DNA of 64,000 nt, taken from positions 186,001 to 250,000 of the forward strand of contig NZ_CP046444.1 of NCBI RefSeq assembly GCF_014083945.1, written 5' to 3'. Shown piece by piece: positions 15,665-56,109 of this stretch. Position 1 is the first letter of the stretch. Each line of letters opens with the position of its first letter. The stretch is from Granulicella sp. 5B5 (GTDB lineage: Bacteria > Acidobacteriota > Terriglobia > Terriglobales > Acidobacteriaceae). The notes beneath the pieces are model-generated. The model had not been told where the DNA came from. It saw only the letters and a program-made list of their open reading frames with translations, and did not search any database. A program made the translations under genes and the position numbers.

Positions 15665-15732
15665 GTAGCCTTGGGCTTTAGCCCAAGGTCTCATAGGCTG
15701 ATAAAAGAACGAAGGGGCATCAGCCCCGGTCC
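15665..15732 (+). repeat. two-hairpin dispersed repeat, copy E1 (overlaps the pdxT stop)
   Basis: Hairpin A is CCTTGGGCT/AGCCCAAGG (15669-15688), flanked by GTAG and TCTCATA. Hairpin B is GGGGC/GCCCC (15714-15727). The TGA of pdxT (15722-15720 on the minus strand) falls in the loop of hairpin B, so the repeat supplies the last codons and stop of pdxT. Compared with copy E2, the flanks are conserved while the stem bases change in a compensatory way. Confidence 0.75.
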
Positions 15733-20749: not shown

Positions 20750-20774
20750 CTCGTCAAACAGCGATCGAACTCTC

Positions 20775-20845
20775 GAAGGGGCACGGCTTTAGCTGAAGCC
20801 GTGCCCCTTCAGACAGCAGCATCAGCGCGGCTTCAGCCGCTGAGG
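20775..20845 (+). repeat. two-hairpin dispersed repeat, copy E8
   Basis: Hairpin A is a perfect 15-bp stem, GAAGGGGCACGGCTT (20775-20789) with its complement at 20796-20810, and a 6-base loop. Hairpin B is weaker, around GCGCGGCTTCAGCCGC (20825-20845). It sits between the convergent 11-mer-repeat gene and ctaA and could also act as a bidirectional terminator. Confidence 0.65.
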
Positions 20846-20868
20846 TTCGTCTGGTGAACCCCACGGCC

Positions 20869-22929: not shown

Positions 22930-22998
22930 GTAGCCCGAGCCTTTAGGCTCGGGTCTCATAACCGGTCCCGGAAAGAAAAAGGGCTTTAGCCCTGGGGT
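22930..22998 (+). repeat. two-hairpin dispersed repeat, copy E2
   Basis: Hairpin A is CCCGAGCCT/AGGCTCGGG (22934-22953), flanked by GTAG and TCTCATA as in copy E1. Hairpin B is AGGGCT/AGCCCT (22980-22993). It sits between the convergent ends of nothing on the plus strand and the 3' end of the AAA+/Fis-like gene, 6 bases past that gene's stop. Confidence 0.7.
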
Positions 22999-24803: not shown

Positions 24804-24891
24804 GCTTTGAAGGGGACGGGCTTCAGCCCGTCCATGACTGCCACCTTTTGAAGACAGGGGCTTTAGCCCCGGAGGGAAGAGTTGCCAAGCG
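24804..24891 (+). repeat. two-hairpin dispersed repeat, copy E3 (with terminal inverted repeats)
   Basis: The 88-bp unit starts GCTTTG and ends CAAAGC, a 6-bp terminal inverted repeat. Hairpin A is GACGGGCT/AGCCCGTC, hairpin B is GGGGCTTTAGCCCC followed by GGAGGGAA. Its first 30 bases are identical to copy E7 inside miaB. It lies in the divergent gap between the bacilliredoxin gene and murB, ending 16 bases before the murB ATG. Confidence 0.8.
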
Positions 24892-30636: not shown

Positions 30637-30707
30637 GCTTTGCAGGGGCACAGCTTTGCCGTGCCGTAGCCGGCAGATAAGAATCGGGGCTTTAGCCTCT
30701 GAGGGAA
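30637..30707 (+). repeat. two-hairpin dispersed repeat, copy E4 (provides the thrB ribosome-binding site)
   Basis: Starts GCTTTGCAGGGGCAC, with hairpin A GGCAC/GTGCC and hairpin B GGGGCTTTAGCCTCT followed by GAGGGAAG. The GAGGGA tail (30701-30706) lies 4 bases before the thrB TTG start, which has no other ribosome-binding site. Confidence 0.7.
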
Positions 30708-36263: not shown

Positions 36264-36345
36264 ACTCTGAAAGGGCACGGCTTCAGCCGTGCCGGAAACA
36301 GCCTCCAAGGCAAATGGGGCTTTGGCGCCTGAGGGAGGATTGCCA
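36264..36345 (+). repeat. two-hairpin dispersed repeat, copy E5
   Basis: Hairpin A is GGCACGGCT/AGCCGTGCC (36274-36293). Hairpin B is the partly paired GGGGCTTTGGCGCC (36317-36330), followed by the GAGGGAGG tail and TTGCC as in copies E3 and E7. It lies just after the M28-peptidase terminator. Confidence 0.7.
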
Positions 36346-52611: not shown

Positions 52612-52691
52612 AGCTTTTCGGAGGGAGCAGTGGCCTTCAGGCCACTGAATACCGCTCTCACGCGAAAGGGGCTTTAGCCCCGGAGGGCTTC
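52612..52691 (+). repeat. two-hairpin dispersed repeat, copy E6
   Basis: Hairpin A is CAGTGGCCT/AGGCCACTG around 52629-52648; hairpin B is GGGGCTTTAGCCCC (52669-52682) followed by GGAGGG. It fills the 102-base gap between the convergent CE15 and GH28 genes. Confidence 0.72.
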
Positions 52692-54571: not shown

Positions 54572-56050
54572 ATGTCCAGGACCTTCTACATCGAAACCTT
54601 CGGCTGCCAGATGAACGCCCACGACTCCGAAAAAGTCGTCGGCACCCTCATCCGCGAAGGCTACCAGCAAGTCGTCGACGAGGCCGAAGCCGGCCTCATC
54701 CTCTACAACACCTGCTCCATCCGCGACAAAGCCGAGCAGAAGGTCTTCCACCGTCTCAACGAGTACAAGCGCCTCCAGGGCGAAGGCAAGCGCTTCGCCG
54801 TCATCGGCTGCGTCGCCCAGCAGGAAGGCGAAAAGATCTTCGAGAAGGCTCCCTACGTCTCCATCGTCGCCGGCAGCTCTTCATACCGCAATCTCCCCGA
54901 GATGCTTCAGCGCCTCGAAGCAGGAGAAACCCGCATCACCGGCCTCGACGACCGGCAGACCGACGAGACCTTCGACACCGAGTTCACCGCGCGCAGCAAC
55001 CCGCATCGCGGTTACATCACCATCATCGAAGGCTGCGACAAGTTCTGCGCCTACTGCGTCGTCCCCTACACACGCGGCAAGGAACGCTCCCGCACCAGCG
55101 CCAGCGTCCTCGCCGAAGCCCAGCGCATCGCCGCCCTCGGCTACACCGAAATCCAACTCCTTGGCCAGAACGTCAACAGCTACGTCGATCCCAGCGGCAA
55201 ACGCAGCTTCGCCGAACTCCTCGCCGCAGTAGGCGAGGTCAACGGCATCCAGCGCGTCCGCTTCACCACCTCGCACCCGCGCCAGTTCACCAAAGACATC
55301 GTGGACGCGATCGACGCCATGCCCGCGCTCTGCGACCACATTCACCTGCCCGTGCAATCCGGCAGCACCAGCGTCCTCAAGGCCATGCAGCGCGAGTACA
55401 CACGCGACTGGTACCTCGAGCGCATCGCCTGGACCAAGGCCGCCAAACGCGATATCTCGCTCACCTCGGACATCATCGTTGGCTTCCCCGGAGAAACCGA
55501 CAAGGACTTCGAGGACACCATCACGCTCCTCGACGAAGTCGGCTACGACGCCATCTACGGCTTCAAGTACTCCCCGCGCCCCAACACCCCGGCGATCCAC
55601 ATGGTCGACAGCATCCCCGAGGAGGTCAAGGTCGAGCGCCTTGCCATCCTCAACGCCCGCCAGCGCGAGATCCAGCGCACCAACTACCAGCGCCACATGA
55701 ACCAGACGATGACCGTCATGGTCGAAGGCCACAACACCGCCCGCAACCAGATCACCGGCCGCAGCTCCCAGAACAAAACCGTCAACTTCACAATGGGTCC
55801 TGCAGCCTTCGCCTTGAACTCCACGGACCTCGCTTTGAAGGGGACGGGCTTCAGCCCGTCCGTTGACTCGCCTCAGAAGGAAGGGGCTTCAGCCCCGGAG
55901 GGAACGTTGCCAAAGCCAGGCAGCTACATCGACGTCCGCATCACGCAGGTCTTCCCCAACTCCCTCGTCGGCGAAGCCATCGCCCCCGCCATCGCCCCAT
56001 CACCAGCTCTGCTAGCCCAGCAAGCCCTGAACGCCCGCATCACCGCCTAG
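54572..56050 (+). CDS. miaB: tRNA-2-methylthio-N6-dimethylallyladenosine synthase with an in-frame repeat insertion
   Basis: 492 residues. UPF0004 domain: YIETFGCQMN, NTCSIRDKAEQK and VIGCVAQQEG carry the three Cys of the auxiliary cluster. Radical SAM: IIEGCDKFCAYCVVPYTRGKE. The TRAM domain spans about residues 385-475. It methylthiolates i6A37 in tRNA. Residues 421-448 are encoded by an 84-bp copy of the two-hairpin repeat, in frame and without stops, between NFTMGPAAFALNSTDL and PGSYIDVRITQ; other MiaB proteins join these strands by a short loop. The enzyme is probably still functional as the core is intact. Confidence 0.94.
   Translation: MSRTFYIETFGCQMNAHDSEKVVGTLIREGYQQVVDEAEAGLILYNTCSIRDKAEQKVFHRLNEYKRLQGEGKRFAVIGCVAQQEGEKIFEKAPYVSIVAGSSSYRNLPEMLQRLEAGETRITGLDDRQTDETFDTEFTARSNPHRGYITIIEGCDKFCAYCVVPYTRGKERSRTSASVLAEAQRIAALGYTEIQLLGQNVNSYVDPSGKRSFAELLAAVGEVNGIQRVRFTTSHPRQFTKDIVDAIDAMPALCDHIHLPVQSGSTSVLKAMQREYTRDWYLERIAWTKAAKRDISLTSDIIVGFPGETDKDFEDTITLLDEVGYDAIYGFKYSPRPNTPAIHMVDSIPEEVKVERLAILNARQREIQRTNYQRHMNQTMTVMVEGHNTARNQITGRSSQNKTVNFTMGPAAFALNSTDLALKGTGFSPSVDSPQKEGASAPEGTLPKPGSYIDVRITQVFPNSLVGEAIAPAIAPSPALLAQQALNARITA
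55832..55916 (+). repeat. two-hairpin dispersed repeat, copy E7, inside miaB
   Basis: Starts GCTTTG and ends CAAAGC (6-bp terminal inverted repeat). Hairpin A GACGGGCT/AGCCCGTC, hairpin B GGGGCTTCAGCCCC, tail GGAGGGAA. The first 30 bases are identical to copy E3 at 24804. It is translated in miaB as ALKGTGFSPS...EGASAPEGTLPK. Confidence 0.85.
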
Positions 56051-56109
56051 CTTTTTACTCCCTACTCCCTACTCCCTATTCCCTCGCACTTCAGCGTTAC
56101 ACTACCAAC

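Follow-up and report, generated by a model that had tools for sequence, protein, structure and literature searches.

How does a dispersed palindromic repeat come to lie in frame inside a core tRNA-modification gene, and why does the gene tolerate it? The window analysed here, 64,000 nucleotides from the 3.93-Mb genome of Granulicella sp. 5B5 (G000), carries on its plus strand a miaB gene at 54572..56050, whose 492-residue product, a tRNA-2-methylthio-N6-dimethylallyladenosine synthase, scores 457.6 bits with the NCBIfam miaB equivalog TIGR01574 (cut-off 355.3) and is the sole full-length MiaB match in this genome. From 55832 to 55903 (+) the gene contains a two-hairpin repeat, hereafter type A, whose 72 nucleotides form codons 421-444 (ALKGTGFSPSVDSPQKEGASAPEG). 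A first-pass annotation had described a dispersed palindromic repeat inserted in frame in a core gene, analogous to the Rickettsia palindromic elements (RPEs), reportedly described by Ogata in 2000, in an unrelated phylum. That reading holds: the insert is real, the ORF confirms that it is in frame and stop-free, and the core interpretation is supported. The observation itself is confirmed in part, its boundaries requiring revision.

The repeat had been given as 84 bp encoding residues 421-448, bounded by GCTTTG/CAAAGC terminal inverted repeats. In an alignment of 114 copies, drawn from G000 and five sister genomes, the type A unit spans GCTTTGAAGGG to GGAGGGA, and with the 3' boundary at GGAGGGA the element measures 72 nucleotides instead of 84, which places CAAAGC outside the conserved unit in MiaB. 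The same terminal pair had been ascribed to an intergenic type A copy at 24804..24876 (+; 82.4 bits with the covariance model R1 described below), where no such pair was found and the sequence reads CCAAGC; the leading 30 bases from 55832 are, as claimed, identical to those from 24804. A pair search and the boundaries over the 114 copies rule out a terminal-inverted-repeat model of the unit. In the same alignment the 5' junction at element insertion boundaries is pyrimidine-rich.

Among 24 aligned copies the order is constant: GCTTTGAAGGG or a close variant at the 5' end, hairpin 1, a spacer, hairpin 2 and GGAGGG(A). In miaB, all on the plus strand, hairpin 1 occupies 55842..55861 (GGACGGGCT-TC-AGCCCGTCC), with a stem that covaries among copies; the variable spacer, about 20 bases long and rarely alike in two copies, lies at 55862..55882; hairpin 2 lies at 55883..55896 (GGGGCTTCAGCCCC; mostly GGGGCTTYAGCCCC among the 24 copies), is followed on the minus strand by TTCCTTCT and was called terminator-like in that direction; and the unpaired conserved tail GGAGGGA, placed by the boundary alignment, occupies 55897..55903. 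Over these 24 copies, both partners vary in 7 of the 13 pairs and 97.4% of cells are paired, a level reached in none of 500 shuffles (the structure was read from the alignment consensus, and the alignment was not model-fitted to it). Folded as a single RNA, 55820-55930 gives a z of -1.59 and a minimum-energy structure lacking hairpin 2, so the evidence for the hairpins is covariation, not energy. Rfam returned one tRNA elsewhere and no family for the element when the window was searched at the gathering threshold, and nothing better than E 0.68, far below the gathering score, at 55600-56100. Type A has no unpaired GTAG at its end, its 5' end being GCTTTGAAGGG, and its CGTC sits in the paired arm of hairpin 1, not at an unpaired end; related copies of some other subtypes start GGTAG. 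A composite variant of 98 nt, in which a third hairpin (GGAGGGAGCAGGGGCCTTCAGGCCCCTGAA type) separates hairpin 1 from the spacer, occurs in frame in QueA, M20 hydrolase and HemD (G000:C1:2694533-2694630, 1242479-1242576 and 3699515-3699612).

The family is abundant. Within the window, GGGCTTYAGCCC occurs 11 times with at most one mismatch against 0.75 expected (0 of 100 shuffles reach 11), and genome-wide GGGCTTCAGCCC occurs 71 times (48 forward, 23 reverse) against 0 for a reversed-pattern control. The covariance model R1, built from 24 copies including the one in MiaB, scores that copy at 85.7 bits (E 1.7e-18) and finds at least 144 matches up to E 1 in G000, a lower bound since only the best 150 of 1639 first-look candidates were scored, so the MiaB copy is anything but alone in its genome. 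Many of the weak matches (below about 35 bits) are, judged by eye, other subtypes sharing hairpin 2. Besides the copy at 24804, the window holds related copies, all on the plus strand, at 15669..15729 (G000:C1 201669-201729; 27.0 bits), 20770..20846 (40.4 bits), 30637..30705 (49.9 bits, between two same-strand genes), 36264..36335 (54.4 bits) and 52615..52687 (43.4 bits), and a weak one at 22934..22995 (23.3 bits). Short, palindromic, dispersed and present in high copy, the element in G000 resembles a REP/TIR in these respects. With the best candidates per genome scored, it was found at E<=1e-6 in 124 of 150 Acidobacteriaceae genomes, G000 included, and 71 of 79 genera; a search scored in the same way found it in 6 of 7 genomes of the family and, outside it, in 1 of 73, at a borderline 8.6e-7. 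Species of the genus range from 0 to 107 copies at E<=1e-5, these counts being lower bounds from the best 150 candidates per genome. In G004, several copies on contigs C2, C6, C14 and C15 form close inverted pairs, REPIN-like in arrangement.

Comparison with relatives identifies the MiaB copy as an addition. Among 28 genomes of the genus, 25 have a full-length MiaB including that of G000, and 23 of the other 24 show the empty state: 21 have a plain short loop, and two (L043 and L048) have 8 and 3 extra residues unlike the repeat. The first-pass annotation's view of the insert as extra is thus upheld, and the segment is not common to acidobacterial MiaB proteins. Among 46 named MiaB loci (of 80 fetched), in all of which the loop is visible, none carries the element by eye; at least four of these loci (L285, L286, L287, L329) duplicate genomes of the genus set, L350 is titled Acidimicrobiia and the remainder Acidobacteriota. 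L346 has, by eye, a longer loop without the element. Variable loop length in TRAM (8 residues more in L043, 3 in L048, and L346) is what might suggest an old, ordinary MiaB loop resembling the repeat by chance, but the R1 score of the segment and its absence from relatives refute this, and we give it practically no credence.

The one filled relative is G025, whose MiaB is the nearest to that of G000 (94% identical) and carries a diverged element at the same place and in the same frame (66.6 bits). Its stem 1 sequence differs from that of G000 with pairing intact (55832-55903 against L032:2740-2810), so conversion may overwrite copies, or others may take their place at the site, and the encoded peptide is quite different. 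A single insertion probably preceded the split of G000 and G025.

In the protein, the two best NCBIfam matches end at residues 407-408 and the alignment with 7mjv, the best solved MiaB, reaches residue 410, in each case just ahead of the extra segment. An AlphaFold2 model from 42 aligned sequences (mean pLDDT 84.8, superseding a single-sequence model at 37.7) places residues 416-443, all below 50 pLDDT, between strands 403-408 and 452-460; the low values are partly due to few or no homologues for that stretch. The model thus shows the insert as an additional, low-confidence loop that connects TRAM strands, in keeping with its earlier description as extra to that domain. It would be translated into about 24 flexible residues and would be neutral for the enzyme.

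Filled and empty loops recur in other genes. G025 AsnS joins gap-free where G000 AsnS has 61 extra residues, and by eye the same loop holds different repeat-like peptides in G008 and G026, as does the first QueA loop in G024 and G025. In-frame, stop-free insertion into conserved genes, with absence in relatives for MiaB, QueA and AsnS, is the pattern of RPEs. Transposition itself was not observed, and none of the type A copies yielded an empty site exact to the base. The G000 AsnS insert (L065) also contains another palindrome (GGGTGGCCCATCC...). A second peptide family, VSSRPEAAGRSGETR, lies in frame in several proteins, including those of the L067 and L148 genes (G000 2182484-2183590 and 2941815-2945315), and apparently derives from the intergenic GTCATCTCGACCGGAG...GGAGAGACC repeat; similar peptides occur in relatives' AsnS (G026) and QueA (G024). 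A further in-frame peptide, LGAPSSPxxSSSxKVG, is found in G025 QueA (L166), with variants in the G000 M20 (L027) and helicase proteins.

The element also lies in other coding sequences, both in G000 and in sister species, a possibility that the first-pass annotation had raised. In G000, 18 of the at least 144 matches fall inside 17 called genes, all 18 in sense orientation. They are also all in frame and free of stops, a property demanded by the purpose-written codon-usage gene caller, which requires open frames and would count frame-breaking or stop-bearing copies inside genes as intergenic. Sixteen hosts were scanned for protein families; two had no match, and the other 14 are MiaB, an MsbA-like ABC exporter, a GH20 protein (its copy beyond the domain match), NagA, an M20 amidohydrolase, protoporphyrinogen oxidase, AsnS, a beta-aspartyl peptidase, QueA (two copies), an amino acid permease, GlyQ (a weak match with one hairpin only), HemC, a DUF2252 protein and HemD. 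The seventeenth is, by eye, a DEXH helicase. G000 has only one full-length copy each of MiaB, QueA and AsnS. In five sister genomes (G002, G003, G005, G010 and G011), 60 regions around matches chosen by high score, not all matches, contained 79 matches, of which 78 were analysed; 15 lie inside genes, again all in sense. Their hosts, all 15 matching a family, some under its cut-off, are LigD, AlaS, MetG, HemC, ValS, LysS, a beta-lactamase-fold protein, a GH57/DUF3536 protein, HisC (copy in the tail), RsmI (copy ahead of the family match, possibly preceding the true start), HemD, an Lhr-type helicase, GlmS, MnmG and LeuS. HemC and HemD each carry the element in two species, by eye at the same loop. 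A MiaB-family paralogue, putatively RimO-like, has two type A elements in G026:C108:42466-43055 and one in G012:C28:58273-58343.

Aminoacyl-tRNA synthetases make up 1.2-2.5% of coding sequence; against this assumed share, their number among the 32 host genes (seven: AsnS, GlyQ, AlaS, MetG, ValS, LysS and LeuS) is an excess with P from 9e-8 to 1e-5. For annotation, the extra loops in AsnS, ValS, QueA, HemC and MiaB of these bacteria should not automatically be read as functional domains.

What spreads the element? G000 has three Y1 transposase genes, two of which pass the model NF047646 for REP-associated tyrosine transposases (RAYTs) and lie between inverted family sequences. At 1955409 (unit 1955307-1955883) both flanks match R1 (25.7 and 27.3 bits); at 643350 one flank does so weakly (22.4 bits) and the other was recognised as sequence; in both cases these are variant copies. 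The third gene is a plain IS200 type around which no flanking family sequences were found, and G000 lacks a RAYT cognate to its strong type A copies. On C17 of G005, type A copies at 377031-377102 (+, 83.5 bits) and 377539-377608 (-, 73.1 bits) flank a RAYT-like Y1 gene at 377177-377467, whose ATG comes five bases past the element match; the protein scores 71.3 bits, under the NF047646 cut-off of 80. A Y1 gene at G011:C77:7288-7515 is arranged in the same way. Inverted copies, type A in G005 and G011 and variants in G000, thus bound transposase genes of this kind, and since they flank some RAYT genes the element is best read as a RAYT-mobilised REP/TIR. Of 84 Y1 matches, 32 loci were scanned; in 4 of them the closest R1 matches lie plus on the left and minus on the right, and the other 28 lack this arrangement, L386 and L387 having matches oriented otherwise. 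Across 19 near-complete genomes of the genus, element and Y1 gene counts correlate (rho 0.66, P 0.002, uncorrected for kinship and genome size). Transposition of the element by RAYTs would account for these arrangements, and in the L226 unit the GGAGGGA-type tail just upstream of the transposase ATG could possibly act as a Shine-Dalgarno sequence.

The most striking property of the copies is their strand. Between tandem genes in G000 (neighbours within 400 bp), 55 copies run with transcription and 2 against; the remaining matches comprise 18 between convergent or divergent genes, 51 for which at least one side lacks a called neighbour, and the 18 intragenic ones. Tandem pairs in relatives (600 bp) show a weaker bias, 20 with and 7 against. 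Such orientation could mean that the element is a cis-acting RNA module, acting in mRNA stability or translational coupling and kept in sense by selection, with the intragenic copies as by-products. The 55 to 2 split in G000 favours this, as do the covarying hairpins, the Shine-Dalgarno-like GGAGGGA tail and the pairing kept in MiaB of G000 and G025 despite different stem sequences, but copy numbers from 0 to 107 within one genus (lower bounds), transposase genes bounded by inverted copies and broad distances to the downstream gene, with no single spacing, make it unlikely.

Several simpler causes of the bias were considered. In 120 of 142 cases the element shares the strand of most coding sequence nearby, and this extends to bins in which both strands occur, an agreement that does not support replication strand as the cause, gene strand and replication not being formally separated. 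Stop codons are rejected, as 139 copies hold 150 open frames in sense and 125 in antisense, too even a ratio. A target-site preference fares no better: by a matrix built on 47 intergenic copies, the expected sense share is 0.52 and phase 0 is not preferred. That the sense bias exceeds the stop-codon prediction and is unpredicted by a pyrimidine-rich 5' target preference leaves room for strand-specific insertion, for instance by a RAYT acting on the single-stranded coding strand during transcription, which would set the bias at insertion and not by selection. Against this stand the 7 antisense copies among the 27 in tandem intergenic regions of relatives, and we know of no coupling of insertion to transcription in the RAYT/Y1 group; we regard it as doubtful. 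Read in antisense, 32 of the 50 strong copies that could be scored (of 52) have a T-rich tail after hairpin 2, with four or more T among 8 bases; in sense, 0 of 50 do. In the MiaB copy, a terminator scan of the minus strand called 1 terminator-like site against 0.3 expected. On this evidence the likeliest cause of the strand bias is purifying selection acting on antisense copies, which would place a terminator-like hairpin in the transcript; such selection leaves the reading frame unexplained.

That frame is nearly unique. Of 33 intragenic copies, 31 include hairpin 2, the NagA and GlyQ matches ending ahead of it, and by our own reading 29 of these 31 read GA(L/S)APEG or a close variant, the other two (AsnS and a membrane protein) reading hairpin 2 as GFSPGG; a test of frame bias that used 28 of 30 gave P 9e-7. 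Neither stops nor target preference explains this near-single 3' frame. One frame in 29 of 31 copies is what selection for a function of the peptide, as linker, binding site or stabilising segment, would predict, but G025 MiaB has a quite different peptide at the same site, the QueA and AsnS loops hold different repeat-like peptides across species and the host proteins are unrelated, so we consider such selection very unlikely. Strong hairpins inside essential genes might also hint at excision of the insert from the mRNA, as with an intron, or at ribosomes skipping it, as with a mitochondrial byp element; all 33 intragenic copies are in frame and stop-free, which would be needless if they were removed (the gene caller could miss frame-breaking ones), and we hold this to be extremely improbable. 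A more far-reaching possibility, which we entertain tentatively, is that the element is adapted to coding sequence, being sense-only and almost confined to one 3' frame, and seeds flexible loops in essential enzymes across the genus. If so, loops would arise above all in aminoacyl-tRNA synthetases, tRNA modification and heme synthesis; a mobile element would be a regular source of new protein segments, and transcription or translation would shape where it lands.

We consider it highly probable that the MiaB insert is a non-autonomous mobile element of REP/TIR type, spread by RAYTs, tolerated in a surface loop and subject to loss of antisense copies. Most likely, RAYT transposases (HUH-Y1, IS200-like) would spread the element as single-stranded DNA, and one copy would have entered the loop between the third and fourth TRAM strands of miaB, probably before G000 and G025 split. 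Being stop-free, a multiple of three in length and placed in a surface loop, the insert would be tolerated and is presumably now translated, as would be the copies in 16 other called genes of G000 and in core genes of sister species. Antisense intragenic copies would most likely be lost through a GC hairpin and U-rich tail that terminate or attenuate the message. The repeat itself is probably selfish. Given its family-wide range and a candidate transposase, the entry and persistence of palindromes in essential genes can be tested over dozens of species by comparing filled and empty sites.

The kind of element described here is already known, from Rickettsia RPEs and from intragenic REPs. RPEs and other coding repeats have been reviewed (PMC2229807), and the portions of PMC3767692 drawn on here place RPE-4/RPE-7 in the tRNA ribosyltransferase-isomerase QueA and an RPE in a phenylalanyl-tRNA synthetase subunit, with different RPE types at the same site of orthologues. 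As far as those portions go, the likeness is close: palindromes lie in frame in conserved genes, some of them tRNA-related, QueA is decorated in both groups, and the mixed RPE types at orthologous sites resemble the QueA and AsnS loops that hold different repeat-like peptides. RPEs differ in measuring 100-150 bp, whereas type A has 72 nucleotides, two hairpins, a variable spacer and its own consensus, and by size, the only property judged, it falls outside the RPE class; it also belongs to another phylum, is linked to RAYTs and has a strict sense bias that the RPE texts, in the parts at hand, do not mention. The first-pass annotation overstated the novelty of such insertions, since in-frame intragenic REPs outside Rickettsia were published in 2013: GTAG/CGTC REPs lie in genes of several phyla, including those for tRNA synthetases and tRNA pseudouridine synthases (Di Nocera 2013, PMC3733652, here and below in excerpt). 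That account names Proteobacteria, Cyanobacteria, Chloroflexi and PVC for GTAG repeats, and Acidobacteria once, as hosting TIR-flanked transposases. In-frame intragenic repeats, with a RAYT-linked GTAG class, are thus shared with type A, which carries neither tag as an unpaired end. Compared by description, the TIRtrons/TIRYTs of the same paper also resemble the present units, being Y1 genes of Terriglobus, Koribacter, Acidobacterium and Granulicella that long terminal inverted repeats flank, with one Koribacter TIR family reported to recur in the genome; the excerpted text makes no mention of intragenic TIR copies. REPtrons and REPINs of the tnpAREP class likewise have a transposase gene between inverted repeat copies, and in the sections consulted of PMC6006769, which also places class 3 Y1 transposases with atypical repeats in Acidobacteria, typical REPs have a GT[AG]G foot that type A lacks. 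REPs have been counted in Granulicella aggregans, in a paper whose text contains neither "intragenic" nor "coding sequence" (PMC12306157). The literature searched, which took in few subscription papers, yielded among the papers listed no description of intragenic palindromes in Acidobacteria that we recognised. As far as these searches reach, the phylum and the strict sense, near-single-frame bias are new, the sense-only pattern pointing to a general constraint or an insertion mechanism undescribed in the intragenic REP literature so far as it was sampled, and RPE-like coding palindromes gain a family-wide home in Acidobacteriota together with a candidate transposase.
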